DNA of 64,000 nucleotides, taken from Pseudonocardiales bacterium. GTDB taxonomy: Bacteria > Actinomycetota > Actinomycetes > Mycobacteriales > Pseudonocardiaceae. The position numbers and the translations under genes were made by a program. Below are positions 21,652 through 51,434 of the stretch, piece by piece. How positions within the stretch are numbered: position 1 is the stretch's first letter; each line of letters begins with the position of its first letter. The stretch is from contig JAHEXI010000003.1 of the NCBI GenBank assembly GCA_023252195.1, positions 124,001-188,000 on the forward strand. The letters are read 5' to 3'. A model generated the notes under the pieces. That model made no database searches and was not told the origin of the DNA. It worked only from the letters and a program-made list of their open reading frames with translations.

Positions 21652-24737
<3,086 letters not shown>

Positions 24738-28196: not shown

Positions 28197-28266
28197 GCCG
28201 GGTAGCTGGACAGCCGAAGTCGAGTAGGCCGTTACTCCGGACGCCGCCGCCGGACCGCCCTAGCGT
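28197..28266 (+). promoter_or_regulatory. phased-repeat promoter array, copy 1 (peptidase operon)
   Basis: Direct repeats GCCGGGTA (28197-28204) and GTCGAGTA (28219-28226) are 22 bp apart. A weaker match (TTCGGCTG) sits another 22 bp upstream at 28175. An inverted half-site TACTCCGGA begins at 28233, giving GAGTA-N6-TACTC. A TAGCGT -10-like hexamer occupies 28261-28266, 42 bp from the last repeat and 6 bp before ATG 28273. Spacing predicts a leaderless transcript starting at or next to that ATG. Identical geometry at 34803-34894 and 51313-51404. Confidence 0.85.
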
Positions 28267-28272
28267 CAAAGC

Positions 28273-28497
28273 ATGGACCTCACAGCTGCGATTAAGGAGC
28301 TCCCCGAGGTACATGCTGTGGCCCTGCGCCTGCACCGGGCCGGTACTGCGAATGCCGAGATCGCCGCCGAGCTGGGCATCGAGGTCGCAGCAGTGCCTCC
28401 ACTTCTGCGACTGGCCAAGGCCAAGCTCGCCCGGTTGCTGGCGGCACCCGAACCCTGCGAGAAGGGCGCGACGCGGCACACCGACCACAGTTCATAA
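28273..28497 (+). CDS. small sigma-70 region 4-like HTH protein
   Basis: 74 residues, ATGGAC start 6 bp after a TAGCGT -10 hexamer, so probably leaderless. The core LPEVHAVALRLHRAGTANAE and IAAELGIEVAAVPPLLRLAK, ending in AKLARLLA, has the shape of the sigma-factor region 4 helix-turn-helix. Regions 2 and 3 are absent, and it cannot be a complete sigma factor. It could be an accessory regulator of the operon, or a leader protein. First gene after promoter array copy 1. Confidence 0.7.
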   Translation: MDLTAAIKELPEVHAVALRLHRAGTANAEIAAELGIEVAAVPPLLRLAKAKLARLLAAPEPCEKGATRHTDHSS

Positions 28498-28544
28498 GAA
28501 GCGTCCGATTCGTTCACCCCGCTCACGATCATTGGAGCCCGCGC

Positions 28545-29582
28545 ATGTCCACCTTTCAAGGCCACGTCTGCTTCTACGTCCCGCCGCACATCAATGATCA
28601 CATCGCTCGGGTCGCTGACAAGGCGGCCGGTCGGAGCAGCGCCGCGCAACGCAGTGCATTGGCTTCACGCGTCCTGCGCGAACGGCGGCGCGAGACCCAC
28701 CACGCCGCGCTTGCGACACTCACCCCTCCGGCACCCGGTAAGGCCGACCGTCAAATCTACGACGATCTGCACCAATGGAATGTCAACGTTGACCTCATCC
28801 GCGGCGAGGGCGACTCGCCCGTCGCAGGCCAAAACGCCAACCTCGCCTATGACTATCTCGGAGCTACCCGTGAGTTCTACAAGGAAGTACTGGGGCGAAA
28901 TTCTCTCGACAACGCGGGACTGACCATCGTTGGAAATGTCAACTTCGGAGTCGATTACAACAACGCCTTTTTTGACGGCGCCGAGATGGTGTTCGGAAAC
29001 GGAGACAACGTCATCTTCAAGGACTTCACCAACGACGTCGACGTGACCGGCCACGAGCTGACGCACGGTGTCACGCAATACACCGCCGGCTTGGAATACC
29101 ATGACCAACCTGGTGCGCTGAACGAGGCGACGTCCGACATCATGGGCGTGTGTGTTGAACAGTACGCCGGAGGGCTTGACGCGGGCACGTTCAACTGGCT
29201 CATCGGTGAAGACGTGATGGCTGACGACCTCTTTGGTGAGGCGATCCGGTCGATGGCTCATCCGGGTACTGCCTACGATAATCCCCAGATGGGTAAGGAC
29301 CCGCAGGCGGACAGCATGGCCGGATACGTGGACGGCGGTGACCCGCACGTCAATAGCGGCATCATCAACCGCGTGTTCTATCTCATCGCCACCGATCTCG
29401 GGAGCATGCCCGCCGCTAAACTGTGGTACGCAACCCTGCAAAACCTGTGGCCTGCCGCCCAATTCAGCGACGCCGCTTTGGTCTGCGGGCAGATGGCACG
29501 CATCCTGGCGCGGGACAAGACGATCGCTCGGCAGGGTCCGCAGACGGTGCGGGCCGCCTTCCGCGAGGTCGGCATCGTCTGA
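28545..29582 (+). CDS. protealysin-like M4 metallopeptidase
   Basis: 345 residues. Zinc peptidase of the thermolysin family: HELTH at 170-174, third ligand E194 (GALNEATSD), and the catalytic histidine in DPHVNSGIINR (H268). The N-terminal CFYVPPHINDHIARVA is the short propeptide motif of the protealysin group. There is no signal peptide and no long FTP propeptide, so it is a compact cytoplasmic-type precursor expected to self-process near residue 60-70. It is second in the operon driven by promoter array copy 1. A probable emfourin inhibitor gene lies 400 bp downstream. Confidence 0.93.
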   Translation: MSTFQGHVCFYVPPHINDHIARVADKAAGRSSAAQRSALASRVLRERRRETHHAALATLTPPAPGKADRQIYDDLHQWNVNVDLIRGEGDSPVAGQNANLAYDYLGATREFYKEVLGRNSLDNAGLTIVGNVNFGVDYNNAFFDGAEMVFGNGDNVIFKDFTNDVDVTGHELTHGVTQYTAGLEYHDQPGALNEATSDIMGVCVEQYAGGLDAGTFNWLIGEDVMADDLFGEAIRSMAHPGTAYDNPQMGKDPQADSMAGYVDGGDPHVNSGIINRVFYLIATDLGSMPAAKLWYATLQNLWPAAQFSDAALVCGQMARILARDKTIARQGPQTVRAAFREVGIV

Positions 29583-29630
29583 GCCGACCCGGGTGCCGGG
29601 CTGACTCTTCCAGCGTGGTTAGTCGCCGGC

Positions 29631-29867
29631 CTAGTGATCGTCAGTGACGGTCGCTAGACCGGCGACAACGCCGGGCCCGGACCAACTGACCTCGCATCGC
29701 GTGCACAACCACTGGAAGTGCCGGTGCAGTCGATTAGCCCAGGTGACGAGCTTGTGACAGGAGTCGTCGCAGCTCCAGCAGGCGGCCTCGAGAAGAACCT
29801 CGGTCTGACGAGCGGCGGCCGGGACGCTCGTGGAACGAGCGCCCTCGACATTCAGGATCTGGCTCAC
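29631..29867 (-). CDS. small zinc-ribbon-like protein
   Basis: 78 residues on the strand opposite its neighbours. The GTG at 29867 is 7 bp after GGAGG, which decides the start. Two cysteine pairs (ACWSCDDSCHKL and WLCTRCEVSW) with histidines between them (NRLHRHFQW) suggest a zinc ribbon. I do not recognise the family. It sits between the metallopeptidase and its likely inhibitor, breaking what is normally an adjacent pair. Confidence 0.6.
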   Translation of the reverse strand: MSQILNVEGARSTSVPAAARQTEVLLEAACWSCDDSCHKLVTWANRLHRHFQWLCTRCEVSWSGPGVVAGLATVTDDH

Positions 29868-29980
29868 AGCTTGTCCTCCGGTGTGCGCCGAACTTGACGC
29901 GTGGCACCCTAACGGGTACCCACCCGGGGCCGGCTGCAATCCCTCTCGTAAACCTGGTGGCTCTCGTGGACGATCAGCAC

Positions 29981-30283
29981 ATGAAGGTCCAGCTCCATAG
30001 AACCGGCGGCTTCGCCGGGTTGGCCGGCGCGGCGTCGCTCGACAGCCGGGACCTCGACGAGGCCGCTGCCGCTGAGTTTCGCCAGCTGGTGACGAAACTG
30101 GACCTCACCGCGCTACCGACCCATGCCGACGCGGCGGTTGTCCCGGACGCCTTCACCTACGAAATCGACATCATTGTGGGGAAGGATCACCACCGCCTCG
30201 CTCTCACCGACCCCGACGTTCCTCCCGAGTGGCGGTCACTCCTGACGCACGTATGGAGCCACGGCCGGCATCCGCGCCGTTGA
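29981..30283 (+). CDS. emfourin-like inhibitor of M4 peptidase
   Basis: 100 residues from ATG 29981; in-frame GTG codons slightly upstream are alternatives. The sequence MKVQLHRTGGFAGLAG, then EFRQLVTKLDLTALP, FTYEIDIIVG and HRLALTDPDVPPEWRSLLTH has the layout of emfourin. Emfourin is the small protein that binds and inhibits protealysin and is usually encoded next to it. Protection of the cell from the signal-less metallopeptidase is the expected role. The match is from memory of the family pattern and needs a profile search. Confidence 0.75.
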   Translation: MKVQLHRTGGFAGLAGAASLDSRDLDEAAAAEFRQLVTKLDLTALPTHADAAVVPDAFTYEIDIIVGKDHHRLALTDPDVPPEWRSLLTHVWSHGRHPRR

Positions 30284-30342
30284 TCCCGTATTCCCTGGGT
30301 TCAGTATTCCGGGCGGCACCTCGCATTGGAGGACGAGTAGCC

Positions 30343-30714
30343 ATGACAATCGACGAAAAATCGTATGGGTTCTGGATCGTAATCGGCGGGCTCGTCGTGC
30401 TGCTGAGCATTTCTCTGGCGGCGGTGTTCCGTTACGGAGCGGTCGCGGATGCATCAGGCCCCATCACGGCCGCCGGCACGGTGATCGGAACGGTGGTCGG
30501 CACCTTCTTCGGCGTGCATGTCGGCGCTGCCGGGGCCGCCGCAGGTGCCCGACAGTCCGAGGCGGCGCGCCAACAGTCGGAGTCGGCGCGTCAGCAGGCC
30601 GAAGGTGTCAAGGACACCGTCGTCGGCGGGCTGTCGACGATTGCGGCGGCTGCCGAGCCAGGAAGCGCGCCTGCGAAGGCTGTCCAAGAGCTGATCGACT
30701 CGATCAAGCCGTGA
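30343..30714 (+). CDS. small two-helix membrane protein
   Basis: 123 residues from ATG 30343, preceded by GGAGG. Residues ~8-32 (FWIVIGGLVVLLSISLAAVF) and ~45-68 (ITAAGTVIGTVVGTFFGVHV) are membrane segments. A Gln/Ala/Ser-rich helix (ARQSEAARQQSESARQQ) capable of coiled coil follows. No family recognised. It ends the forward gene set, with an opposing operon ending 27 bp later. Confidence 0.65.
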   Translation: MTIDEKSYGFWIVIGGLVVLLSISLAAVFRYGAVADASGPITAAGTVIGTVVGTFFGVHVGAAGAAAGARQSEAARQQSESARQQAEGVKDTVVGGLSTIAAAAEPGSAPAKAVQELIDSIKP

Positions 30715-30741
30715 ACTGCCGAATCTCCCGGTGCGCAGCGA

Positions 30742-32001
30742 TCACGCGAGTGCGGCGGCGAGGACGGCCCAGAGGATCTCAGGGTGCCGGATATCGCTGT
30801 GCGCACCGGAGAACGCGGACTGGTTCGCGGCGATGACGGCGTCACTTTTCAGCCGGTAGAAGCGGCCCTTGTCGAAGGTGTACGGCTTACCGGCCGGTTG
30901 CAGGACGATTTCCGTGGCGTCTTGCTCCTGGTAGCCGTCATGGCCCATCCCGCCCCATCGGTAGGTGAGGTCTTGGGCGCTCTCACTGTCGCTGTGGCTC
31001 AGCAGTGATGCTGCCGGATACCACCAGCCAACCGCCCGGTCCGCTGCCGAGAAGGTAGCCAGTAGCGGGCCATCGACGCCGTTTCGGTCCCCGGCGAGGG
31101 CGCCGTTGCGGGCGGCGTCGATCGGCATCGGCTGGGCGAAGCTGAAATGGGAGAAGGCACCCTGGATGAGAGTCAGCGACTTCACCGGGCTGTCCGGGCC
31201 CCGGCGGTCGCCTGGTAGGCCGGACAGCGCGAATGCGACCAGCCGGGCGCCGAAGCTGTGCCCGAGCAGGTGAATGCGCGGCTGCCCTCCGGCCGGGACG
31301 AGCTGGCTGACCAGCGGCCCGAGACCGGACCGGCCGATCACACCCGCACGGTTCTTCATCTCGTAGTAGCTGGCGGTCCGCAGCACCTCCCGGGCACCAC
31401 CCCAGAGGCTGTTGAAGAAATCACCCACATCCTGGGCGTCGCCTTGGGTCTTGGACATGCCGGCGAAGTGACCGAAGACCGCCGCGGTCGGCTGGGTCAG
31501 CACCGCTTGCTCCCCGGCGTCCTCGGCCGCGCCGAGGTCTGGTGAAGTCACCAGGCTACGGATGAGGCTGTGGGCCTCCCGCAGTTTCCCGGAGTTCGCC
31601 GGCTTGGTATCCAGCAGCTCACCGATCTGAGCTAGCGCTTGTTGCTGTGGCGGTTGGAAGACCGGCGTTAGCGCGGCTGCGAGTTGCTGGCCGCTGCGCG
31701 CGGCGGCGGGCGGCGCGGTGGGGTCGTCTTCGGGGAAGACCAGGGCGGGCCAGAAGACGCCGACCGCGCCAGCCTGGCGACTGCCCGGCGCCGCGCCGAT
31801 CTGTTCCGACAGCAAGGTGAACATCGCTTGGTAGAGGTCGCGGGCGCTGGCCACCGAATTGTTCCAACCGTGGCAGAAGATGAACAAGTCGGACAGCTGG
31901 TGGCCCGGAAGTTCGGCCGGCAGCTGACCGTCGTCGACCAGCGTGCCTTTCTCGTCGAAGTGGATTTCCCAGTAGGGCAGTCCACCGATCTGCATGGCCA
32001 T
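30742..32001 (-). CDS. alpha/beta hydrolase-like protein
   Basis: 419 residues from ATG 32001. The nucleophile elbow LLGHSFGARLVAF (Ser249) and an oxyanion-type FIFCHGWNNSV at about 40-49 mark an alpha/beta hydrolase (lipase/esterase-like). A long helical insertion lies between them, and the C-terminal part includes a YRWGGMGHDGYQ block that may carry the histidine. There is no signal peptide. It is the last gene of a three-gene operon (C1 peptidase, S8 peptidase, hydrolase) with 25-27 bp spacers. Substrate unknown. Confidence 0.75.
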   Translation of the reverse strand: MAMQIGGLPYWEIHFDEKGTLVDDGQLPAELPGHQLSDLFIFCHGWNNSVASARDLYQAMFTLLSEQIGAAPGSRQAGAVGVFWPALVFPEDDPTAPPAAARSGQQLAAALTPVFQPPQQQALAQIGELLDTKPANSGKLREAHSLIRSLVTSPDLGAAEDAGEQAVLTQPTAAVFGHFAGMSKTQGDAQDVGDFFNSLWGGAREVLRTASYYEMKNRAGVIGRSGLGPLVSQLVPAGGQPRIHLLGHSFGARLVAFALSGLPGDRRGPDSPVKSLTLIQGAFSHFSFAQPMPIDAARNGALAGDRNGVDGPLLATFSAADRAVGWWYPAASLLSHSDSESAQDLTYRWGGMGHDGYQEQDATEIVLQPAGKPYTFDKGRFYRLKSDAVIAANQSAFSGAHSDIRHPEILWAVLAAALA

Positions 32002-32028
32002 TGCTACCACTGCCTTCCCGCATTGGAC

Positions 32029-33564
32029 TTAGACATTCGATAAGACCCGCATCAAGTCGATGAGGCCGTGTCCTTCCAGGAAACGATCACGGCCCAGCGA
32101 GGTCGCGTTCGTGGTGAAGAGTTCCTTCACCTCGCGAGGCCGGCCCACGAACTCCTGCTGTACGGACAGAAAGGCCGCGATGGCGCCGGAGGCGTGCGCC
32201 GCGGCCATCGAGGTACCGCTGTCCTCGATGTAGGTGGCCGCGATGGCGTCGGCCTCGTCGACGAGGTCGGCCATCCTCTGCCGCAGGTGCCCGGTCGCGC
32301 AGGACGTGATGCGTTCCCCGGGCGCCAACAGGTCGGGCTTGAGCCGGCCGTCCAGGGTGGGGCCCTTGGAGGAGGTATAGGTGACTCCGTACCGGTGCGG
32401 GCTGTCCCGGTGGGTGGACCCGACCGTGATCGCCTCCTGCGCGTTGCCCGGATCGGTGATGCTCGAAAGCACCCCACGGGAGTCGGAGCTTTGGCTGACC
32501 GCGCCGGCGTAGCCGCTGTTACCAGCGCTGACGACCACCACTACGCCCGTTCCGACCAGCAGATCGATCTCCCGGCACAGCGGGCTCTGGCCGGCGGCGT
32601 AGTCGCTCGGGTCCCACCGACAGCCCAAGCTCAGATTCGCGCCGTGGATGATCAGTGCTCGACCGCCCGAGTTCACCGTTTCACGGATGTGATACAGCGC
32701 TGCGATCACCGCGCTCGACGAGGTCACCAGCCCGTCTTGACCGTCGGGCGTGAGGACCTTCAGGCTGACCAGCTTTGCCTGGGAGGCGATCCCGGTCAGC
32801 GACCGGCCGGGGTCGATCTGCCGGGCCACCCAGTCTCCGGGCAGACCGTCCTGCGAGGGCTGCTGGCTGGCGATGACCGGTGTCACCGTGGCGGGGACCG
32901 CGCCTGCGATGATGCCGGCTACGTGTGTGCCGTGCCCTTCGGGATCCAGCAGTGCTGCGTCCGGGTCCTTGGGCGGTTGCGCGTCGGGGGTCAGCAGATA
33001 GGTGAAATCGTGGTGCAGTTTGGCCACCGCGCCGGTGAGGGTGCCGTCGGCGAAATGAGGGTGATGTTGATCTATCCCACTGTCCAGGACAGCCCAGGTC
33101 ACTCCCTCGCCGGTCGCAGCGTAGGAACGAACGGCGGCGTCGGATTTGATCGTGGACACCGACCGGTCCAGGTGCGGGTGCAGGGTGTAATCCGGCCAGA
33201 CCCGAAACACGGTCCGGGCCGCGCCGGCCGCCCGATCGGCCGCCACCAGATCCTGGATCTCCTGGGGGCGCAGCATGCAGGAGACGTAGCAGTCCGCGAC
33301 CGGGCGCGGATTCGGGGCGCCGGCGCGCCCCACCGAATGGTCATACAGTTCGAGGAACCGCTGCCGAGTGTCCTCGGTGTCCACATCGATGGTGAGATCC
33401 AACTCGACCAGCGCCGGGCTGCGCTGGTCCTGTCCCACCCGTACCACTCGTCGGCGTGCCTCCTCCGGGACGTCAGGCTGCAGCGCCGGACTGACCACGC
33501 TTCGGTGCAGCACCCGATGCGGCCTTGGTCGGCTCGATGCGGTATCGCCAGAGCTGGGGCCCAT
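32029..33564 (-). CDS. S8 (subtilisin) family serine peptidase
   Basis: 511 residues, ATG after GAGGAAG. The catalytic triad is complete: D161 (AVLDSGIDQHHP), H211 (GHGTHVAGI) and S452 (SGTSMAAAHASG), with the oxyanion N349 (VSAGNSG). About 150 N-terminal residues form a pro-like domain. The start region is Arg/Ser/Pro-rich, with no hydrophobic signal. A GxNLSLG strand and the LKPDLLAPG segment are typical. Middle gene of the operon running towards the emfourin region. Confidence 0.93.
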   Translation of the reverse strand: MGPSSGDTASSRPRPHRVLHRSVVSPALQPDVPEEARRRVVRVGQDQRSPALVELDLTIDVDTEDTRQRFLELYDHSVGRAGAPNPRPVADCYVSCMLRPQEIQDLVAADRAAGAARTVFRVWPDYTLHPHLDRSVSTIKSDAAVRSYAATGEGVTWAVLDSGIDQHHPHFADGTLTGAVAKLHHDFTYLLTPDAQPPKDPDAALLDPEGHGTHVAGIIAGAVPATVTPVIASQQPSQDGLPGDWVARQIDPGRSLTGIASQAKLVSLKVLTPDGQDGLVTSSSAVIAALYHIRETVNSGGRALIIHGANLSLGCRWDPSDYAAGQSPLCREIDLLVGTGVVVVVSAGNSGYAGAVSQSSDSRGVLSSITDPGNAQEAITVGSTHRDSPHRYGVTYTSSKGPTLDGRLKPDLLAPGERITSCATGHLRQRMADLVDEADAIAATYIEDSGTSMAAAHASGAIAAFLSVQQEFVGRPREVKELFTTNATSLGRDRFLEGHGLIDLMRVLSNV

Positions 33565-33589
33565 TGCGCTCTTCCTCGGTCGGCGGTAG

Positions 33590-34282
33590 TTACTTCACCG
33601 GGACGGTGACGTCGCCTTGTTCTTGCAGTAGCCGATCCCAGGTGTCAAAGGTCATGCAGAAGCGGCCACCGACGCCGAATTGGGTGCCCCAGCTGTTCCA
33701 GAACCAGACGAGTTGATTGTCGGCGTCGATGCCGTCGGCGACGATCTCGTGCCCACCGCGGACCGTGGCGGCTGCGGTGATCTCGACGAGCCCGGTCTGC
33801 GGATCGGGCCTGTCGAAACTGCTGTACCAGTTGATGCCGGTGATGACCGGGCGCTCCACGAGCGCTTCGAGGGCCTGCTGGATGCCGAAGGCGTGTTGGT
33901 ATGAGGTGATCATTCCCAGCTGGACGGCTGCCTTGCAGACCATCAGACCGCTGCCGCCGGGATCATTGGGCGGGTAGGGCTTGCCCTCCAGCTTGGTCTC
34001 CAGCTCGTAGAGGGTGATGGCATCGGTTTCGGTGAGCGCCGCACCGCCGTTGGAATTCGGGACGGAATCCAACGCGCCACACAGCGCGTTGGCGGTGCAG
34101 GACCCGATGTGGCCTTGATCTAATGGCAATCCGGTCGCTTGATGGGTCACACTCACGATCTGTGGGGCCCGGGCGGCCTGGAATTGCCGGGAGCGCGGGT
34201 CGTGCTTGACGTGACGCCCCAGACGCTTGCCCGCAATGGGGTCTTCCGGCAGGTGGGCTGTGATGATGTCTGATCCTGGCAT
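33590..34282 (-). CDS. C1 (papain-like) cysteine peptidase
   Basis: 230 residues from ATG 34282, with GGGAG upstream. The catalytic cysteine is in DQGHIGSCTANA (C62), with the preceding Gln as oxyanion residue. The histidine is in RGGHEIVADGID (H178) and the asparagine in WFWNSWGTQFGVGGRF (N196). All are in papain order. It is short, with only ~50 residues before the active site and no signal peptide, so it may be made nearly mature. It leads the operon. The two genes downstream encode an S8 peptidase and a hydrolase. Confidence 0.9.
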   Translation of the reverse strand: MPGSDIITAHLPEDPIAGKRLGRHVKHDPRSRQFQAARAPQIVSVTHQATGLPLDQGHIGSCTANALCGALDSVPNSNGGAALTETDAITLYELETKLEGKPYPPNDPGGSGLMVCKAAVQLGMITSYQHAFGIQQALEALVERPVITGINWYSSFDRPDPQTGLVEITAAATVRGGHEIVADGIDADNQLVWFWNSWGTQFGVGGRFCMTFDTWDRLLQEQGDVTVPVK

Positions 34283-34465
34283 GGCCGTTCTCCCTTGGTG
34301 TGGCCGTTGTGCAGGTGGAGAGCACGCCGGACCAGCTCCTGATACCGCCTGTGTCAACAACGGCCCGAAATTGGGCCATTCGGCCCGACCAGCGCCGCAT
34401 CGAGGCGACACGGCCGGATGGGAGTAGCGGGAGCGCAGGCTCGACGCCGAGCGCGCGGAGCGGCT

Positions 34466-34766
34466 GTGATCTATCTGGACTCCTCAGCGCGTCGAAGTGA
34501 TCAGGGCGGCTCGTCGGGTCGGCGGTCCTGCCGTACTGGAAGCGCGGGCGGTGGTGAACGACATCGATCTGATCGTCCTAGACCGTGCGGTCCAGGATCT
34601 CGCCTCCGACATCGGTGACCCGTTGTTGCGTACCGTTGACGCGCTGCACCTAGCTTCCGCCGTACTGCTCGGCGACGACCTGGCGGTCTTCGTCGCCTAC
34701 GACCACCGGCTCACCGACGCTGCCCAAACCGCCGGACTAGCCGTCGCCACACCCGGTCGGGCGTAG
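34466..34766 (+). pseudogene. vapBC-type remnant: PIN-domain toxin with internal deletion
   Basis: GTG 34466 opens VIYLDSSA, the start of a PIN (VapC) ribonuclease with its first acidic residue. The frame then jumps directly into VIRAARRV and continues as VLDRAVQDLASDIGDPLLRT, LDALHLA-like VDALHLASAVLLG and VAYDHRLTDAAQTAGL, the C-terminal half of VapC. About 35-40 codons are missing and the junction is out of frame. Upstream, an antitoxin tail (RRLDAERAERL) ends in a TGA overlapping the GTG, the usual VapBC arrangement, but only about 12 codons of it remain. Confidence 0.75.
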
Positions 34767-34802
34767 TGCTGGGTAGGACGTCGGCCACGACGCGGCGGTC
34801 AG

Positions 34803-34894
34803 ATCGGGTAGCCGGCGCAGTCCAGTCGGGTAGCCGGCTCAGTGAAGTCGAGTAGGCCGTTACTCCCGACACCGCCACGGGGGCGACCTAATGT
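34803..34894 (+). promoter_or_regulatory. phased-repeat promoter array, copy 2 (DUF1036-like operon)
   Basis: Three direct repeats sit exactly 22 bp apart: ATCGGGTA (34803-34810), GTCGGGTA (34825-34832) and GTCGAGTA (34847-34854). An inverted half-site TACTCCCGAC follows at 34861-34870. The -10 hexamer TAATGT is at 34889-34894, 6 bp before ATG 34901. Repeat-to--10 (42 bp) and -10-to-ATG (6 bp) distances equal those of the other two copies. Confidence 0.88.
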
Positions 34895-34900
34895 TGAGAC

Positions 34901-34981
34901 ATGGACCTGTGCCTCGCCGTCGTCAGCCATCATGTGCTCGGGGTCGGTGTAGAGGCCGACCAGTGCCACTTGTATTTATGA
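34901..34981 (+). CDS. leaderless short ORF after promoter array copy 2
   Basis: 26 codons starting ATGGACCTG 6 bp after a TAATGT -10 element, reading MDLCLAVVSHHVLGVGVEAD and ending at TGA 34979. Its first three codons (MDL) match those of the gene after copy 1. It may be a decayed version of that small HTH gene or a genuine leader peptide. The next gene begins 94 bp later. Confidence 0.45.
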   Translation: MDLCLAVVSHHVLGVGVEADQCHLYL

Positions 34982-35074
34982 ATTCTGGACCGGTCCCGGA
35001 CCTTCATGGGCGCCGCTGTACCTCGGACGGCTCGGGCAACTATTCGGTCTTTACCCTCGACGGGAGAGGTGGAC

Positions 35075-35290
35075 ATGACTGATCCGCAAGCCAATATTGA
35101 CGAGAGGGTTGCCTTCGGGGCGATGGACGCAGCCGCTGATCGGTACACCGCGGAAGCGCCATCCGACAGCTCGCAGCATGAGTGGCCGAGCAGGCTGTCG
35201 AGCAGCGGCACGTCTCATGAGCCGGCGCACTTGGACCGTCCGGCCCCGAGTAACGAACCGCTCAGGGTTCGTTTCGAGAAGGCGGAGTAG
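35075..35290 (+). CDS. hypothetical hydrophilic protein, 71 residues
   Basis: ATG 35075 follows GGGAGAGG. The sequence MTDPQANIDERVAFGAMDAA, with later SSQHEWPSRLSSSGTSHEP and a charged end RVRFEKAE, is polar and probably disordered. No family recognised. It lies 5 bp before the DUF1036-like gene and downstream of promoter array copy 2, so it belongs to that operon. Confidence 0.6.
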   Translation: MTDPQANIDERVAFGAMDAAADRYTAEAPSDSSQHEWPSRLSSSGTSHEPAHLDRPAPSNEPLRVRFEKAE

Positions 35291-35295
35291 GGCTC

Positions 35296-35658
35296 ATGTG
35301 GGTTGCCTTCCAGAACAATCACAACCAACAGGCCTGGGTTGCCATCATGCAACACGACACTGGCTCCTGCGGCGGAGAGGGTGGCGATTGGGCCACCGCC
35401 GGTTGGTGGACGCTGAATCCAGGTGAGTCGAAGACTGTGTTCTGGACCACCAACCAGTACTCTTTTTTCTACGCCGAGGCGGCGGATGGCGTGTATTGGG
35501 GTGATTCCAACGGTCCGGGCGTGTACGTCACAAACGACCGCTTCAATTCTTGTTACAATATCGGCACCTCTACGTGGCGCATCGTAAATATGAGTCGGAT
35601 TGACGTCGGCTGGCCACCGGCACGACCCTTCACCCATACCGTTAACCTCAACGGTTAG
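35296..35658 (+). CDS. DUF1036-like beta-sandwich protein
   Basis: 120 residues, ATG after GGAG. The pattern WVAFQNNHNQQAWVAIMQHD, then GWWTLNPGESKTVFW and YSFFYAEAADGVYWGDS resembles DUF1036, in which a GWW.l.PGec..v..g.....yyyYAe core is conserved. DUF1036 proteins are small and often surface-associated, of unknown function. There is no signal peptide in this start. Two cysteines (CGGEGG and SCYNIG) could pair if exported. It is the last gene in the array copy 2 operon. Confidence 0.65.
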   Translation: MWVAFQNNHNQQAWVAIMQHDTGSCGGEGGDWATAGWWTLNPGESKTVFWTTNQYSFFYAEAADGVYWGDSNGPGVYVTNDRFNSCYNIGTSTWRIVNMSRIDVGWPPARPFTHTVNLNG

Positions 35659-35845
35659 GGCGTTGGATTGGCTGGCGAGAGCGTCCGCACTGTTTTGGTT
35701 CGCCGGAGTTCTTCCTCCGCGGCTATCGGTAGTTGAGCGGGTGGCCACCGACGCTGGCCTGGCCACGTGAGTAGGAGCTTCGGCGAAACGAGGCAGCCTG
35801 ACGAGTGAGAAGGGAGAGTCGCCAATTGACCAGGCAGCCGAGCGT

Positions 35846-37246: not shown

Positions 37247-37274
37247 CGCAGCGTCCGGGCAACCCTTCCCACCG

Positions 37275-37730: not shown

Positions 37731-37774
37731 GCCTGCCGGCGGACCTCGCCGCTCCCGTACTCCGCGCCAGAGCC

Positions 37775-37830: not shown

Positions 37831-37908
37831 GGCGCTCGCTGTCCGAGCCGCGACTGCCGCAGGCAGAAGTCGGTGCCGGCGACCTTCGATTTCGGGAGCT
37901 GGGTGCCG

Positions 37909-38409: not shown

Positions 38410-38485
38410 GTCCGGAACATAACAGCCACCTCCGGCACCGCTGGGGCCTGATCAAGCCCTTCAGGTTGCGCTGGCGGCGTGGCAC

Positions 38486-43849: not shown

Positions 43850-44285
43850 ATCTGCTCCTGCCTGCGAGGACGATCAGTGTCATCGACACCCGCGACGATC
43901 ACACCCCGATCGTGGTGGCTCACGCGGGCGGGCTTTCGTAGCTTGGCTGGAACCCTGTGTGACAAACCCTGTGTGACGAAGGTATCACCCAGCGGAAGCC
44001 TTACCAGGCCATCGGAGCCCTCAAGGCCTCGATTCACCGTGTCGACGGGCGCACGTTGCCCGCTTTAGCGGCATCACGATCACGGTGGACCAATTCCGAA
44101 GCCAACAAGCATATCTCCGTCCGCGCTCGTCGGGCTGGAGCGACACGCAGGTGGCAACCGGCGGTTCGTCGGGAAATGTGTGGAGGGGGATGGCGCCGAG
44201 GTGCTCACACTCACATCAAAAACAGGCACATCACCCGACCTGTTGGGTCGTTGCTCAGTCGGGACGACACGGCGGGAGTGTGAGT
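43850..44285. other. 436 bp divergent promoter region
   Basis: The region separates the sugar operon (leftward) from the L,D-transpeptidase (rightward). It contains a perfect-but-one 14 bp direct repeat, ACCCTGTGTGACAA (43952-43965) and ACCCTGTGTGACGA (43966-43979), head to tail, which could be an operator. No convincing gene is present. Confidence 0.55.
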
Positions 44286-45518: not shown

Positions 45519-45699
45519 GAAGCGCGTAGCCGAACTCGCCTGCGAGGTGGCGGGCTGGCGTGCTTCCCGCGCAGCGCCACCTACCGATCGGGTGGTCCAG
45601 CGTCACGGGCGGATACTCGGGGGCTGTTAGGGGAATCCTGTGTGATCGATCAACACGGGCCCCGACGCACAGCCGGGCCTTGGGCTTAGGAGGATTCGC

Positions 45700-45993
45700 A
45701 TGAGCAGCACGCCTGAGCGGGCCGAGCACTCCATCGATAAGTTGGACGAGGCGATCGGTCCCGACGTCGAGATCCCGGGGGTTTACCCCACCGGGAGCGC
45801 CCCGGACAGCACGGAAGCTGCTGAGGCTGATTCGCATCCGTCGGAGCCGACCACTACCCCGCGCGAGGGTGCGTCACTGGGTGATCTGACCAAAGACGTC
45901 AGTACGTCTGGGGTGCCGCAGGAGAGCGGTGGCATGGGCATCCCTCAATACGACGACGAGGAGCGCAAGGCGAGTAACCCGCCAAAGCCCTGA
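45700..45993 (+). CDS. hypothetical acidic, disordered protein
   Basis: 97 residues, ATG preceded by TTAGGAGG. Rich in Ser, Pro, Glu, Asp and Thr (SSTPERAEHSIDKLDEAIGP and TTTPREGASLGDLTKDVS) with a GGMGIPQYDDEERKASNPP end. No fold, signal or membrane segment is apparent and no family is recognised. It stands alone between the L,D-transpeptidase and the conservon. Confidence 0.65.
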   Translation: MSSTPERAEHSIDKLDEAIGPDVEIPGVYPTGSAPDSTEAAEADSHPSEPTTTPREGASLGDLTKDVSTSGVPQESGGMGIPQYDDEERKASNPPKP

Positions 45994-46325
45994 TCAGAGC
46001 TGCAGTCGTGCTGGCGTGGACGTCGGGTCGTCGACGAAGGACACGTCGCCGTCGCCGACGTCGGCGTGGCTGGGGATGATGCGGCCGCGCAAGACCCGTT
46101 GGGCTGACGCCTGTTCGTGAACTTCACGCCGATGGGTAATTTTTCCTTTCAACGTTGGAAGGTGTACTTGTACTGATCTCGATCTAGCTTCGGCGGCCCG
46201 CCGCACCAGTCGGTACTCCTGCTGACTGACCCATCCTCACCTGCGGAGTAACGGAGAAATCTGCGGTCTTAGTAGATCCGAACGAGCCATCTCAGGGCGG
46301 TCGGCGAACAGCTCGGTGTACGCCG
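45994..46325. other. 332 bp intergenic region with an 18 bp near-palindrome
   Basis: CCTTTCAACGTTGGAAGG at 46145-46162 is an inverted repeat with one mismatched pair, flanked by AT-rich TTTTT and GTACTTGTAC. It lies about 165 bp before the conservon and is a plausible operator or promoter element. A reverse-strand reading of about 50-70 codons across 45994-46206 has no ribosome-binding site and was not called. Confidence 0.5.
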
Positions 46326-47654
46326 GTGGTTGCAGCGATGATCACGGATAGCAATCGCCAAACACTTGTGTGTCGCACGATCGAGCGAGTACCGTGCGTT
46401 GCCGTGGGGACGGTCAATGATCATCTGCGAGTCCGTTTTGAGCGCGGTGTCCAGTGGCTCCAGGAGCAGTACCGCAGCGACAGCACCCGGACGCTGGTGA
46501 ACAAGGCGCGATTGGCGGCCGCGCAGTTGTTGGCGCCGCCGGACGCCGCGCCAGGATCGGTGCCCCCGCGAGAGTCCGGTACACCGGTCAACCGGCAAGA
46601 AGGAACGCACGATGTGCTGGCCGGGTTGTGTGGCGGCGTGGCGTTGCGCGATCTCAATCTGGTGGACTCCCTGCTTGCTCAGCTGGAGGCCATGGAGGCG
46701 AACGAGGGCGATCCGGACGCGTTGGCGCGGCTGTACCAGCTCGACCACGTCGCCGTCCGGCTGCGTCGCAACGCCGAGAATCTGCGGGTTCTCGCCGGGC
46801 ATGACGCCGGTACTGCGGCCGATGCGGCCTCGCCTCTGGTCGACGTGATCCGGGCGGCGATGTCGTCCATCGAGCAGTATCCCCGGATCGAGATCGGGAG
46901 CGTGGTGCCACAGGCTGTGGTCGACTTCGTTGTCGATGACCTCAGCCGGCTGCTCGCGGAGCTGCTGGACAACGCCACCTCGCACTCGCCACCGATGTCG
47001 AACGTAGCGGTGAACGCGCACCTCACCGAGCAGGGCGGCGTGCTGCTGCACATCGAAGACGCTGGAATCGGCCTTCCGGCAGCCCGGCTGGAGGCGCTCA
47101 ACGCCCGGCTTTCCGCGACACCGACGCTGGACAGCGGGTCGATCGAGCACATGGGCCTTGCCGTCGTTCGCCGGTTGGCCGGCAAGCACAATATCCGGGT
47201 CAGGTTGGAGAAGCGGGCCGTTCACGGCACCACGGCCGCGGTGACGTTGCCCGCGAATCTGGTGTGCAAAGCGCCAGCCACACCCTGGTTCGCCGGTGCG
47301 CCGACGCCGGCGACGAATATTCCCCGACCCCGATCGGCGCCGGCCCCGGTCCGCGACGAGGTGAGCCCGCCGACCTCACCTCGGTACTCCCCGTGGATGG
47401 AGCAGGGCAAGACGCCGGCCCCTGGAACGACACGCAACGGATTGCCCCGGCGCGTACCGCAGAGCATGCGGGAATTCGCTGGCTTTGCCTCGACCGGACC
47501 CCGCAGCCCGGAGCATCCCGACTCCGACCCTAGTGAAGGACGTGAGCAGTTGATGACTGATCTCGGCGACTTCTCCGAGGGTGAGCGAGCTGCCCGCAGA
47601 AGTGCGCGGCGCCGAACCGCGGATGGAGGCGGGGCGAAAGGATCGGGCGAATGA
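46326..47654 (+). CDS. cvnA: CvnA-type histidine-kinase-like ATPase
   Basis: 442 residues at most; GTG 46326, ATG 46338 or later starts are all possible, and no good ribosome-binding site is seen. The middle shows the conservon kinase pattern LDHVAVRLRRNAENLRVLAG (H-box-like), then an HATPase_c domain with LLDNATSHSPPMSNV, EDAGIGLP and MGLAVVRRLAGKH. The usual N-terminal periplasmic nitrate-sensor part and membrane segments of CvnA are missing, so it is a soluble short form. The C-terminal 120 residues are Pro/Ser/Arg-rich. It overlaps cvnB (ATGA). Confidence 0.82.
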   Translation: MVAAMITDSNRQTLVCRTIERVPCVAVGTVNDHLRVRFERGVQWLQEQYRSDSTRTLVNKARLAAAQLLAPPDAAPGSVPPRESGTPVNRQEGTHDVLAGLCGGVALRDLNLVDSLLAQLEAMEANEGDPDALARLYQLDHVAVRLRRNAENLRVLAGHDAGTAADAASPLVDVIRAAMSSIEQYPRIEIGSVVPQAVVDFVVDDLSRLLAELLDNATSHSPPMSNVAVNAHLTEQGGVLLHIEDAGIGLPAARLEALNARLSATPTLDSGSIEHMGLAVVRRLAGKHNIRVRLEKRAVHGTTAAVTLPANLVCKAPATPWFAGAPTPATNIPRPRSAPAPVRDEVSPPTSPRYSPWMEQGKTPAPGTTRNGLPRRVPQSMREFAGFASTGPRSPEHPDSDPSEGREQLMTDLGDFSEGERAARRSARRRTADGGGAKGSGE

Positions 47655-48091
47655 CCGCCGACAACACTATCGACAACCCGGTGGGGTTCGGCTGGTTGAT
47701 TAACGGTTTCGTCGAGCGTGTGCACGGGGTAACGCATGCCCTCGTGCTGTCCTCCGACGGATTGCCTTTGACCTCCTCCGAATCGGTGAGCAGCGACGAT
47801 GCCGAACAACTCGCAGCGATCGCCAGCGGTCTGCTGGGTCTGGCTCGCAGCAGCGCGGCACTGTTCGGTAAGGGCAGCTGCGAGCTGATCATGATTCGGC
47901 TTTCCCGCGGATACTTCTTTTTCATGGGTATCGGTGACCATGCTGGGCTGGCTGTGCTGACTGCTCCAGGCTGCGACATGAAGGTTGTTGCGTACGAGAT
48001 GACCCAGTTCGTGGACCGCGCTGGGCATGCATTGACACCGAAGGTCCGAGCCGATCTGCGGCGCGTTATCACCGCGCGACGAGCCGACTGA
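47651..48091 (+). CDS. cvnB: CvnB roadblock/LC7 protein
   Basis: 146 residues from ATG 47651, 4 bp overlap with cvnA. Roadblock/LC7 fold with FGWLINGFVERVHGVTHALV, LSSDGLPLTSSE, DDAEQLAAIASGLLGLARSS and a YFFFMGIGDHAGLAVLTAP strand pair. In conservons CvnB is a GTPase-associated scaffold, possibly regulating CvnD. Gene order A-B-C-D is standard. Confidence 0.93.
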   Translation: MTADNTIDNPVGFGWLINGFVERVHGVTHALVLSSDGLPLTSSESVSSDDAEQLAAIASGLLGLARSSAALFGKGSCELIMIRLSRGYFFFMGIGDHAGLAVLTAPGCDMKVVAYEMTQFVDRAGHALTPKVRADLRRVITARRAD

Positions 48092-48110
48092 CCCACCGAG
48101 GAGGGGAACG

Positions 48111-48467
48111 GTGGACACTATTTCGATGCGCAGCAACAGGATTCGACTTTATGCGCTCACCGGGGGACGTACAAGACCGCGCCACCACCTCCTGGTGGAG
48201 ACCCTGATCTCGGTTCCGCATTACGATCCGCAATTTAGCGCAGGGCTGCTGCCGGAATCGCGGGCGCTCTACGAGCTTGCCCGCAAGACGATCTCCATGG
48301 CGGAGCTGTCCGCCCATCTGACCATCCCGCTGGCAGTGGTCCGCGTGCTGATCAGTGACTTGGCCGCGCAGGACATGGTGTTCATCCACCCCACCGGCTT
48401 CGTATATCAGTACGACCAGATCATCCTGGAGAGGATCCTCGATGGACTCAAGAAACTACCCGTTTGA
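48111..48467 (+). CDS. cvnC: CvnC (DUF742) protein
   Basis: 118 residues from GTG 48111, after GAGGAGGGG. DUF742 winged-helix-like protein: IRLYALTGGRTRPRHHLLVE, ALYELARKTISMAELSAHL and VVRVLISDLAAQDMVFIH. The TGGRTRP motif near the N-terminus is diagnostic. Third member of the conservon; its end overlaps cvnD by 26 bp. Confidence 0.93.
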   Translation: MDTISMRSNRIRLYALTGGRTRPRHHLLVETLISVPHYDPQFSAGLLPESRALYELARKTISMAELSAHLTIPLAVVRVLISDLAAQDMVFIHPTGFVYQYDQIILERILDGLKKLPV

Positions 48468-49044
48468 CGCCTCTTCGTTGACCATCTCAGCGAAGATCGT
48501 TGTCGCCGGTGGTTTCGGAGTGGGGAAGACCACTTTCGTGGGTTCGGTGTCCGAGGTGGAACCGATCAACACCGACGCGTGGATGACGGTGGCCGGCGAG
48601 AGTGTCGATGCGCACCCCGACAGCGCAAAGACCACCACCACGGTGGCCATGGACTTCGGACGTATCACACTGCATCCGGATCTCGTGTTGTACCTGTTCG
48701 GCACACCGGGCCAGCCCCGATTCTGGTTTCTCTGGGACGACCTGTGCCGGGGAGCGCTCGGTGCTGTCGTCCTGGTGGACACCAGGCGGATCCAGGAATC
48801 GTTCGCGGCCATCAACTACTTCGAAAACGACTCTGATATCCCGTTCGTCGTGGCCGTCAACATGTTCGACGGCGAGCTCGGCTACGAACTCGACGAGGTG
48901 CGCGAAGCACTTGCGCTCTCTCCGGAAGTGCTGCTGACCACCTGTGATGCCCGGGACCCGGGGTCGACCTCGAAGGCACTGCAGGATCTGGTGTCTTACA
49001 CCATGAAGCACCTCACCGTCTCCTACGGCCCGGTTCCCCCGTGA
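48442..49044 (+). CDS. cvnD: CvnD small GTPase
   Basis: 200 residues from ATG 48442. A complete MglA/CvnD-type G-domain: P-loop VVAGGFGVGKTTFVGSVSE (about 21-39), switch I TTTTVAMDFGRI (64-75), switch II region LFGTPGQPRFWFLWDDL (85-101), and VAVNMFDGE for the base motif. It is the output switch of the conservon signalling complex. Compare the second, reduced GTPase at 50420. Confidence 0.93.
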   Translation: MDSRNYPFDASSLTISAKIVVAGGFGVGKTTFVGSVSEVEPINTDAWMTVAGESVDAHPDSAKTTTTVAMDFGRITLHPDLVLYLFGTPGQPRFWFLWDDLCRGALGAVVLVDTRRIQESFAAINYFENDSDIPFVVAVNMFDGELGYELDEVREALALSPEVLLTTCDARDPGSTSKALQDLVSYTMKHLTVSYGPVPP

Positions 49045-49098
49045 CCTGATAGGCCGAAGGCGAACCACTGCGAGGCAGCAGGGAGGAAGGTCTACAGA

Positions 49099-50346
49099 AT
49101 GTGGAAAGTGTTGATTGTCGGTGCCGGCCAGGCTGGCTTGCAGCTTGGGCTGAGCCTGCATCGTCACGAATACGATGTCACCATTATGTCAGCCCGTACT
49201 CCTGATGAGATTCGCAGTGGGCGGGTCATGTCCACCCAATGCATGTTCGGTCCAGCCTTGCAGCACGAACGTGACTATGGCCTCAACCTGTGGGAGCGGC
49301 AAACACCGAAGATCGAAGGGTTGGGCCTGTCCATCGCCGATCCTGATCACGGACGTGCGCTGGACTGGGTCGGCAGGCTCGACGACTACGCACAGTCGGT
49401 GGACCAGCGGGTGAAGATGGCCGGCTGGCTGGAACTGTTCGAGGATCGGGGCGGCAAGGTCGTCTACCATGGCGTCACGACCTCCGATGTCGATTCGTTG
49501 ACCTCCTTCTACGACCTGGTCATCATCGCCGCAGGTAAGGGCGAACTCGTTGAGCTGTTCGACCGGGACCTGAGCCGTTCGCCCTACACCAGCACACAAC
49601 GCATACTGTCAGTGGTGTATGTGCACGGTATGACGCCGCGACCGGAGCACCCCACCATGCACGCGGTGCGCTTCAATGTCATTCCCGGAGTGGGTGAACT
49701 TTTCATCATGCCGTGCTTCACCCTCAGCGGGCCGTGCGACATCCTGTTCTTCGAAGGAATCCCCGGTGGCCCGTTGGACTGCTGGGACGATCGTCCAGGT
49801 CCGGCCGAGCACCTCAGACGCACGCTCGGGCTCATGCGCGAGTACGTGCCGTGGGAGTACGAGAGGTGCGCCAGCGTCGAGCTGACCGACGGCAGGGCCA
49901 CGCTGACTGGTGGTTACCCCCCCGTGGTACGGCAACCGGTAGGTGAGCTGCCGTCGGGCGGACAGGTATTGGGTATGGCCGACGTCGTGGTCGCCAACGA
50001 TCCGATCACCGGGCAGGGCTCGAACAGCGCGAGCAAGTGCGCCGCCTCGTACCTGGCGAGCATCCTGGAGCGCGGCAACGAGCCGTTCGACGGGGGATGG
50101 ATGCAGCGAGCCTTCGACCGGTACTGGTCCGACGCCCAGCACACGACCATGTGGACGAACGCTCTGCTGGGTCCGCCTCCCGAGCACGTGATGAAGATTC
50201 TCGGGGCCGCAGGTGCCTACCCGGAAATCGCCCGTCGGTTCGTCAACGGGTTCGCCGATCCGGCCGATTACCAGCATTGGTTCATGGACCCGGATAAGGC
50301 GGAGATGTACCTCGCTACGGTCGCCTCCCGCCAGGACGGGGAGTGA
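49099..50346 (+). CDS. StyA-like FAD-dependent monooxygenase
   Basis: 415 residues, ATG after GGAGGAAGG. N-terminal FAD Rossmann motif VLIVGAGQAGLQLGLSL, the RVMSTQCMFGPALQHER segment, DLVIIAAGKGELVELF and a C-terminal flavin block ADVVVANDPITGQGSNSAS match styrene/indole monooxygenase oxygenase subunits. These take reduced FAD from a separate reductase; no StyB-like reductase is encoded here. In other conservons the fifth gene is a cytochrome P450, so this flavoenzyme takes its place. It is probably cotranscribed with cvnABCD (54 bp gap). Confidence 0.85.
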   Translation: MWKVLIVGAGQAGLQLGLSLHRHEYDVTIMSARTPDEIRSGRVMSTQCMFGPALQHERDYGLNLWERQTPKIEGLGLSIADPDHGRALDWVGRLDDYAQSVDQRVKMAGWLELFEDRGGKVVYHGVTTSDVDSLTSFYDLVIIAAGKGELVELFDRDLSRSPYTSTQRILSVVYVHGMTPRPEHPTMHAVRFNVIPGVGELFIMPCFTLSGPCDILFFEGIPGGPLDCWDDRPGPAEHLRRTLGLMREYVPWEYERCASVELTDGRATLTGGYPPVVRQPVGELPSGGQVLGMADVVVANDPITGQGSNSASKCAASYLASILERGNEPFDGGWMQRAFDRYWSDAQHTTMWTNALLGPPPEHVMKILGAAGAYPEIARRFVNGFADPADYQHWFMDPDKAEMYLATVASRQDGE

Positions 50347-50419
50347 GCCGACACCCCGGCCAGCGGGTGAGCGCGGAGGCCAGCCTCAGCGAGCGGGCCG
50401 ATCAAGATAGTCGGGGGTG

Positions 50420-51037
50420 ATGGGGGGTCGCGGTGTGGACGGTACGCCTATCTTCGACGAGCTTCGAGGCCTTTTCGACGAGTCACACGGCCGCGTCGAC
50501 GCCCCTTCGAGATCCGGTTCCGGGCCGAGAACCGAGGCCGAGAATGCTGACCGGCCACCCGCGAAGATCGTCGTCACGGGTGGCCGCGGGGTAGGCAAGA
50601 CCACCTTTGTAACCTCGGTCTCGGACACCGATCCGGTGACCGTCAAGGCGGCCACGGATGTCGGTCGGGTCACCCTTCACCGGGATCTCCTGCTGTACCT
50701 GTTGGGCACGGCGGAGCCGTCGCAGGCGGCGTTCGCCGGGGCGCTCGGTGCCGTGGTGCTGGTGGACCCTCGGCGCGTCGAGGACGCCTTCGCGATGATC
50801 ACCTACTTCGAGCGCTCTGACGTCCCGTTCATCGTGGCCGTCAACATGTTCGATGGTGAGCTCCGCCACGAACTCGACGAGTATCGCGAAGCGCTCGCGC
50901 TGCACCCTGATGTGCCGCTGACGACCTGTGATGCCCGCAATCCGGAGTCCGCCGCGCGGACGCTGCAGGAATTGGTGTCGTACACCATGAACATCGGCGG
51001 TTCGGATCACAGCCCCCCGCCCGAGGTCCCTGTCTGA
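50420..51037 (+). CDS. second CvnD-like GTPase lacking switch regions
   Basis: 205 residues from ATG 50420 (GTG 50417 also possible). A disordered N-terminus of ~50 residues precedes a P-loop KIVVTGGRGVGKTTFVTSVS. Where CvnD has TTTTVAMDFG there is only VKAATDVGRVTLH, and the GTPGQPRFWFLWDDL segment is shortened to GTAEPSQAAFAGA. The rest (AVVLVDPRRVEDAFAMITYF, VAVNMFDGELRHELDEYREA, TTCDARNPESAA) is very close to cvnD. Nucleotide binding may remain, but switching seems lost. It arose by duplication within the locus and may act as a decoy or fixed-state partner. Confidence 0.82.
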   Translation: MGGRGVDGTPIFDELRGLFDESHGRVDAPSRSGSGPRTEAENADRPPAKIVVTGGRGVGKTTFVTSVSDTDPVTVKAATDVGRVTLHRDLLLYLLGTAEPSQAAFAGALGAVVLVDPRRVEDAFAMITYFERSDVPFIVAVNMFDGELRHELDEYREALALHPDVPLTTCDARNPESAARTLQELVSYTMNIGGSDHSPPPEVPV

Positions 51038-51232
51038 CTACGTCTCCCAGGTCAGGTCGAACCCCGACAAGGCCCGGTACCGTTCGAGGAGCTCCTCGTC
51101 GGTCAGCTCCGAATGAGGGGTACGAAGTCCTTTGGGCTCGGGACCATAGACCTCTGCCGCCACCTCCATCTCCTGCTCGAGAGCCCAGCCCGTAGGCGTT
51201 TGCCGCATCTCATCGAGGGACTCGTCGTCCAT
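51038..51232 (-). CDS. small acidic hypothetical protein
   Basis: 64 residues, ATG preceded by AGGAGG. Sequence MDDESLDEMRQTPTGWALEQ, then EMEVAAEVYGPEPKGLRT and ELTDEELLERYRALSGFDL. Acidic and helical, no family recognised. It abuts the GTPase end to end (stops at 51037/51038), leaving no room for a terminator. Confidence 0.65.
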   Translation of the reverse strand: MDDESLDEMRQTPTGWALEQEMEVAAEVYGPEPKGLRTPHSELTDEELLERYRALSGFDLTWET

Positions 51233-51312
51233 GACACCTCCTGGCGAAGCTACCTATGGTTTCACGCTCAGGCTGGTGGCGCTGCCCGCCGAACGCAGGG
51301 CCGCGACGACGG

Positions 51313-51404
51313 GTCGGGTACTCGGCGCGGCACGGTCGGGTAGCTGGCTCAGAGAAGTCGAGTAGGCCGTTACTCCCGACATCGTCGCCAGCCTGACCTA
51401 GCTT
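51313..51404 (+). promoter_or_regulatory. phased-repeat promoter array, copy 3 (copper oxidase operon)
   Basis: Direct repeats GTCGGGTA (51313-51320), GTCGGGTA (51335-51342) and GTCGAGTA (51357-51364) are exactly 22 bp apart. The inverted half-site TACTCCCGAC occupies 51371-51380. The -10 hexamer TAGCTT is at 51399-51404, 42 bp from the last repeat and 6 bp before ATG 51411. About 60 bp around the inverted site are nearly identical to copy 2. Confidence 0.88.
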
Positions 51405-51410
51405 CGAGAT

Positions 51411-51434
51411 ATGGACGAGTGGGCGCCGAAATGA
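51411..51434 (+). CDS. leaderless 7-codon ORF coupled to the multicopper oxidase
   Basis: ATGGACGAGTGGGCGCCGAA and a TGA encode MDEWAPK. The ATG is 6 bp from the -10 element, so ribosomes should load directly on the 5' end. The stop overlaps the oxidase ATG (ATGA at 51431-51434), and the oxidase itself has no ribosome-binding site. Termination-reinitiation is the simplest model for its translation. Confidence 0.55.
   Translation: MDEWAPK

Follow-up and report, generated by a model that had tools for sequence, protein, structure and literature searches.

A stretch of 64,000 nucleotides from the genome of a Pseudonocardiales bacterium (contig JAHEXI010000003.1, positions 124,001 to 188,000 of the forward strand; this whole stretch is referred to as the window) carries the same arrangement of short repeats at three places, each ahead of a different type of gene, which raises the question of whether these arrays are the promoters of a single regulon and, if so, which regulator acts on them. 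The first-pass annotation of this DNA had described three identical arrays of repeats phased at 22 bp, had ascribed them to a common activator, and had named the LAL protein as the one to be tested for binding and the MalT-like and SARP-type activators as known users of such repeats. We consider it likely, on comparative grounds, that the three arrays act as activator-dependent promoters and together define a small regulon under the control of the LAL protein encoded at 25440-28121 (+ strand).

All three arrays are on the + strand and share one layout, i.e., half-sites 44 and 22 bp upstream, the palindrome GAGTA-N6-TACTC, 23 bp, a TANNNT hexamer, 6 bp, and ATG. Array 1 (28175-28278; 97.8 bits under the model described below) consists of a degenerate box at 28175, boxes at 28197 (GCCGGGTA) and 28219, the palindrome at 28222-28237, the -10-like hexamer TAGCGT at 28261-28266, and an ATG at 28273. 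Array 2 (34803-34906; 98.6 bits) has boxes at 34803, 34825, and 34847, the palindrome at 34850-34865, the -10-like hexamer TAATGT at 34889-34894, and an ATG at 34901, and array 3 (51313-51416; 100.9 bits) has boxes at 51313, 51335, and 51357, the palindrome at 51360-51375, the -10-like hexamer TAGCTT at 51399-51404, and an ATG at 51411. Counted from the first base of GAGTA, GGGTA half-sites lie at -22 in all three arrays and at -44 in arrays 2 and 3, TANNNT starts at +39, and the ATG is at +51. The positions and shared spacings given by the first-pass annotation thus hold to the base, including the 42 bp between the start of the last box, GTCGAGTA, and the TANNNT hexamer. The arrays are not identical, however, as their pairwise identities over -50 to +51 are 72, 72, and 77%; the 22-bp direct repeat comprises three boxes in arrays 2 and 3, while the outer box of array 1 (ttcggctg, at 28175) is degenerate but in register, and the inverted half-site after the last box is present throughout but takes a different form, TACTCCGGA, in array 1. 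The pattern GRGTA-N17-GAGTA-N6-TACTC has three matches in the window as compared to a mean of 0.00 in 100 dinucleotide shuffles.

The own genome (4.74 Mb in 48 contigs) contains three matches to GTCGAGTAGGCCGTTACTCCNGA with at most three mismatches, and the reversed control has none. A sequence-only model was built from nine arrays, i.e., the three in the window and six from relatives; with this model the window arrays scored 97.8-100.9 bits and the next match in the own genome scored 18.4 bits. Across 11 genomes of the genus there were nine matches of 97.8-112.4 bits, followed by one of 21.3 bits (among the best 150 candidates per genome), and in 297 genomes of the family the next best score was 26.5 bits (among the best 12 candidates per genome). 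Two genomes, G008 and G005, are the only other carriers among the ten other genus genomes searched, with three arrays each. Weak matches of 18-26 bits in other genera were taken mostly as chance; the match of 26.5 bits (L049) sits in the divergent promoter region of another LAL gene.

The LAL protein, with 893 amino acids (aa) from the first GTG (the start is uncertain), has the size and the N-terminal ATPase expected of its class (AAA_16, 6.9e-10, 40.1 bits against a Pfam cut-off of 32.6) as well as a C-terminal GerE/LuxR helix-turn-helix (HTH; Pfam GerE, 2.3e-11, residues 835-886). AAA and GerE were the only families found in it, with no SARP DNA-binding domain, and against the NCBIfam MalT model it scored 18 bits where the cut-off is 537, so that it does not qualify as a MalT equivalog. 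Orthologs with 77-78% identity occur in exactly those 3 of the 11 genus genomes that carry arrays, whereas LAL matches in the eight others are at 37-46%, with one partial match in G010 at 53% across 228 residues. All three array genomes have one palindrome at a distance of 38-100 bp downstream of the LAL stop codon. Near LAL paralogs, a search for three-copy repeats at 20-24 bp found none resembling the arrays. Within the own genome, the LAL paralog with the highest similarity (L030, G000:C5:102762-107714; 49%) matches in two frames and looks broken; behind it come an array-like but diverged stretch (18.4 bits) and a presumably SARP-like gene.

The palindrome also recurs beside LAL genes in other genera. 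Its core, CGAGTAGNNCGNTACTC, has 37 matches in 32 of 390 family genomes, as compared to 8 for the reversed pattern. Of 29 matches outside the genus, 27 were examined (two had no locus and were left out); 19 of them immediately follow the 3' end of a LAL gene, 3 immediately precede a LAL start, and 5 are found elsewhere. The converse test began from 34 LAL loci selected without regard to the motif, comprising 21 new family loci and 13 of 20 genus loci (the omitted ones being the orthologs L019-L021, L023 as a near copy of L022, the partial L028 and L029, and L030, which has no C-terminal match), and counted every 5-mer palindrome with gaps of 0-12 in the LAL flanks. GAGTA-N6-TACTC was the commonest (exact in 13/34 loci); second and third came readings of this site in shifted register, ahead of the first independent palindrome with 6/34. 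At 9 or more of 10 positions the palindrome was present at 16/34 loci (12/21 family and 4/13 genus loci) and in 0/102 control chunks taken from LAL coding regions. In a tree of 39 LAL rows, from which L023, L133, and L137 were omitted, the palindrome label needs 5 changes against 13.2-13.3 in shuffles, with 0/500 as low, and the window LAL groups with its two orthologs and L175 in a supported clade whose members are all palindrome-positive.

A fixed downstream spacing accompanies the palindrome. The 37 sites read comprise the nine arrays and 28 others that follow LAL genes, and in 34 of the 37 NANNNT stands exactly 23 bp after TACTC (30/31 by script and 4/6 by eye). The scripted tally was 9/9 for the own arrays, 13/13 for the g15 sites, 4/5 for g58 with L101, and 4/4 for the genus paralogs; L083, L181, and L191 lack the hexamer at this distance. 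With a 17-bp spacer, a -35 hexamer would abut the palindrome, and by eye it reads CCGACA/CCGACG-like in most own arrays and ATGAC- in g15; a scan of 34700-35000 for consensus promoters and terminators gave no match. Upstream half-sites are at -22 in 9/9 and at -44 in 7/9 own arrays and at -32 and -55 in 13/13 g15 sites; these positions differ, yet all are near whole helical turns, suggesting that helical phase is kept. The half-site presumably also resembles the NarL heptamer TACYYMT.

If the transcript starts at the ATG, the centre of the palindrome falls at -43.5, with 35 bases lying between TACTC and the ATG. The 74-aa open reading frame (ORF) opened by the array 1 ATG (28273-28497, +) resembles sigma-70 region 4 (Sigma70_r4_2, 2e-5; 24.6 bits, slightly below the Pfam cut-off of 25.7), and its homologs, which start with ATG in G005 and with GTG in G008, open at the identical array position; a further homolog in an f8 genome, behind the LAL-linked palindrome at L133, also starts 51 bp from GAGTA. 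As the homologs of this small ORF start at the same array base, we propose that it has a leaderless start. While the gap of 6 bp and the ATG hold throughout the window, the hexamer ATGGAC, which the first-pass annotation had included in the element, is not a fixed part of it and the ATG is not invariant; among the nine arrays of the three genomes, four have ATGGAC and one each has ATAGAC, GTGGAC, ATTGGC, GGGGCC, and ATGAAG.

Several observations weigh against the assignment of the arrays to the LAL protein. The co-occurrence in three genomes may reflect one inherited locus, the 13 g15 sites, being near-orthologous, represent few events, and L102-L104, where the sites are ahead of LAL genes, lack NANNNT at 23 bp. 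The control for the flank test was coding sequence and not other intergenic DNA, and 18/34 LAL loci have no palindrome at 9/10. At class level (394 genomes) there were 13 matches outside the own arrays against 5 for the control, and just 2 of these 13 adjoin a LAL gene. Finally, array G8a of G008 has no clear target, as an ORF on the opposite strand precedes the next gene on the same strand, which encodes a pro-kumamolisin-type peptidase about 650 bp away.

Taken together, the co-occurrence, the flanking palindrome near related LAL genes, and the fixed 23-bp spacing support a common activator that is probably the LAL protein. We infer that this protein, a MalT-type STAND ATPase with a LuxR-type HTH, would oligomerise on a signal and bind GAGTA-N6-TACTC centred at about -43.5, abutting the -35 region, from where it could recruit RNA polymerase to the NANNNT hexamer 23 bp downstream. 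The two further half-sites, at about -71 and -93 on the same face of the DNA, would allow cooperative binding, and the small sigma-4-like gene behind array 1 would be translated from a leaderless mRNA. DNA targets of LAL proteins have rarely been defined, and an operator with fixed geometry would allow regulons of a LAL subfamily to be predicted from sequence. Among the titles listed in a literature search that mostly left subscription papers outside, none announces the operator GAGTA-N6-TACTC, which is a weak basis for absence.

Individual loci at which the palindrome adjoins a LAL gene show diverse neighbours. At L112 (G210:C1:7838000-7857000), a different LAL gene with the palindrome behind it is followed by genes for an Asn/Gly-rich repeat protein and two Dynamin_N proteins, i.e., an iniBAC-like operon; its regulator shows no kinship with that of the mycobacterial loci discussed below. 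At L108/L189 (G066) and L137 (G849), which belong to different families, the palindrome stands at the end of the LAL gene and a similar, presumably cupin-like gene comes next, making this a second conserved pair of LAL and target. At L024 (G007:C150, 4164-4861), the LAL-linked palindrome stands ahead of an ORF that we presume to be ECF sigma factor-like.

It is unlikely, in our judgement, that the arrays are real promoters served by another activator, such as the small sigma-4-like protein or an unlinked regulator. The small ORF, with its similarity to sigma-70 region 4, does follow one array in each of the three genomes, and a similar ORF is found behind the LAL-linked palindrome in L133 and near one in L038; the palindrome, however, adjoins many LAL genes that have other neighbours (iniBAC-like, cupin-like, ECF sigma, SRPBCC-like), and repetition of half-sites is as expected for sites of a LuxR-type HTH. 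An origin of the arrays as a mobile or recombining repeat, or as recombination sites for the exchange of cargo with only a secondary promoter role, appears very improbable, even though units of about 120 bp are alike where their flanks are not and the cargo varies between genomes. There are only three copies per genome, those in the window all lie on one strand in promoter position, the palindrome and the 23-bp spacing are kept at unrelated LAL loci that lack the remainder of the unit, and the core was found in 0 viral contigs. Copies scattered in non-promoter positions, which the first-pass annotation had regarded as the mark of a mobile repeat, did not appear in the model scan of the genome, where each of the three copies is ahead of an ORF on the same strand. 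A phage or plasmid origin was likewise rejected, given the absence of the core from viral contigs; one plasmid record had a LAL match that passed the strict limit applied (39% across 55% of the protein).

We give hardly any credence to the palindrome acting behind LAL genes as a transcription terminator or an RNA hairpin, as its frequent position just behind a LAL stop codon might suggest; its stem is 5 bp and has no T run, the scan of 34700-35000 alone found no terminator, 6/9 arrays are not directly behind a LAL gene and some sites are ahead of LAL genes, and the fixed distance to NANNNT would be left unexplained. The presumably SARP-like gene behind the diverged array-like stretch at L030 could point to a SARP-type activator of the 22-bp direct repeats, but the linked regulator lacks a SARP domain and the best conserved core is an inverted repeat. 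The 22-bp spacing is indeed SARP-type according to the accessible part of PMC10936776, but the same source gives a rule of 8 bp to the -10 hexamer where the last direct box here ends 34 bp from it, and with both this distance and the regulator domain at odds with SARP activators, the SARP-type geometry mentioned by the first-pass annotation fails and such an activator is scarcely credible.

The genes behind the arrays are unrelated, as first described. Behind array 1, the small sigma-4-like ORF is followed by a gene for an M4 (thermolysin-type) peptidase (28545-29582, +; Peptidase_M4_C, 5.1e-37) and an emfourin-like gene (PF20242; 29957-30283, +; Emfourin, 3.4e-20). This adjoining pair of M4 peptidase and emfourin-family genes (28545-30283) encodes proteins of which neither has an evident signal peptide. 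The array 2 ATG opens a predicted ORF of 26 codons (34901-34981, +), and a DUF1036-like gene (35296-35658, +; 1.3e-4, exactly at the Pfam cut-off) lies about 400 bp behind the array, with a possible small ORF at 35074-35290 in between. The array 3 ATG opens a 7-codon ORF, MDEWAPK (51411-51434, +), whose stop overlaps the next start as ATGA; this start belongs to a multicopper oxidase gene (51431-53440, +; Cu-oxidase_2, 4e-22), for which an in-frame GTG at 51419 is an alternative start and whose PhsA-like match is below the NCBIfam cut-off. Outside the window, where genes were called by a codon-score script, the G008 arrays precede the small ORF and then a patatin-like gene, a DyP peroxidase gene, and, for G8a, an ambiguous target, and the G005 arrays precede the small ORF, an animal-type haem peroxidase gene, and a galactose-oxidase-like gene. 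No target type other than the small ORF is shared between the genomes. Sigma-70 region-4-like proteins of 60-100 aa are encoded behind palindrome-bearing LAL genes in two families, at L133 (G421), at L038 (G002:C100), and in the window (28273-28497). A crude check, subject to uncertain starts, found a strongly hydrophobic N-terminal stretch in 0/14 cargo or neighbouring proteins, with a highest 12-residue hydrophobicity mean of 1.81 as compared to 2.74 and 3.33 for controls. A defence system was considered and rejected, as nine proteins compared to PADLOC-DB matched only subtilase/IetS, a phospholipase effector, and an HTH stretch. Elsewhere in the window, HATPase, Roadblock, DUF742, and small GTPase genes stand in a row ahead of a gene for a styrene-monooxygenase-A-like protein (46404-50346), a conservon-like set, and ORFs at 14481-23364 resemble, by eye, a soluble diiron monooxygenase operon that includes a GroEL-like gene.

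The repeated unit extends over about 120 bp. Beyond about -55 on the upstream side, most array pairs have little in common (18-40%), with the exceptions of G8a/G5a (78), G5a/G5b (55), and G8a/G5b (45). On the downstream side, G8a (18/18 bases), G5c (12), G8c (11), and w34 (11) still resemble the opening codons of the small ORF where an unrelated gene follows, with uncorrected p of 0.0001-0.0053, and array 3 (6) and G5b (7) show no such similarity; this comparison is partly circular because the reference string was taken from the G008 and G005 copies. The order of the island is rearranged between genomes. In G008 and G005 the arrays and the LAL gene lie among genes that we presume to be PIN-like, DoxX-like, second-LAL, and xylulokinase-like, and array 2 of the window lies between ORFs presumed to be PIN-like and xylulokinase-like. 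We read the arrays as duplicates of one promoter that carry a fossil of its first gene, and we infer both the direction and the mechanism of copying; the promoter of about 120 bp, including the first codons of the small gene, would have been duplicated ahead of other genes, and the cargo of the regulon would therefore differ between species. The nine arrays look like a readable record of how a regulon grew through duplication of its promoter, several copies still having traces of the ancestral first codons ahead of unrelated genes. We also put forward, as a tentative idea that may well prove wrong, that a LAL-dependent, copy-and-paste promoter cassette of about 120 bp with small sigma-4-like first codons captures changing, cytoplasmic-looking versions of usually exported enzymes, and that GAGTA-N6-TACTC-N23-NANNNT serves as a general operator code for a large subfamily of LAL proteins, in Pseudonocardiaceae as well as in some other actinobacteria. 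If so, the lineage would keep one sensor and one promoter and swap the enzymes behind them, among them proteases, peroxidases, multicopper and galactose oxidases, and a phospholipase.

Among known systems, the iniBAC operon of mycobacteria is like the window system in that its STAND activator, IniR, is encoded near the target promoter, and unlike it in that IniR is reported, in the accessible part of PMC5760070, to control iniBAC alone, while the array targets here are other genes. Identity with IniR was suspected since the g15 LAL gene with its palindrome (L112) precedes an iniBAC-like operon, and was rejected on the basis of 12 mycobacterial iniBAC-like loci (of 23 found), in which neither a tblastn match to two LALs at E 1e-5 nor G[AG]GTA-N6-TAC[TC]C was found; the 800-846-aa ATPase-like gene at these loci was taken as IniR by place and not by domain search. 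At eight own-genus loci with IniA-like genes, no LAL gene was called and no G[AG]GTA-N6-TAC[TC]C was found within flanks of at most about 1.5 kb.

LAL regulators are common in actinobacteria; in S. coelicolor, 14 of 23 LuxR-family ORFs are listed as putative LALs (PMC3282765). The Streptomyces LALs SCO6993 (PMC9628970), SCO0877/SCO7173 (PMC3282765), and MilR (PMC5015266) have the same protein architecture as the window LAL, but the operator GAGTA-N6-TACTC does not appear in the accessible parts of these sources; SCO6993, as described in the portion available of PMC9628970, is like the window system in its palindromic footprints and unlike it in being a repressor for which the authors could not predict a consensus. 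E. coli MalT likewise combines a STAND ATPase with a LuxR-type HTH and uses several half-sites per promoter, one set of which is at -35, but its MalT box is GGA[TG]GA as opposed to GRGTA/TACYC here (accessible parts of PMC9628970 and PMC7567727).

The closest likeness is to MalT of Actinoplanes sp. SE50/110 (ACSP50_3915), as far as the accessible text of PMC7567727 describes it. This LuxR-family, MalT-like activator is encoded inside the region it controls, several promoters lie within that one region, the genes of which differ from species to species, and its palindrome overlaps the -35 and ends 34.4 ± 1.0 bases from mapped starts, as compared to 35 bases here if the start is the ATG. By contrast, 17 starts are reported there as compared to three arrays here, the operator there is TCATCC-N5-GGATGA, neither this nor GGA[TG]GA being the operator of the window arrays, and phased upstream half-sites and duplication of a promoter unit are not described in that text. 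As in a MalT-type regulon, the palindrome here would abut the -35, at a fixed distance from the -10-like hexamer in 34/37 sites, and the best explanation is that the window system resembles the MalT regulon of Actinoplanes in its mode of action and differs from it in its operator.

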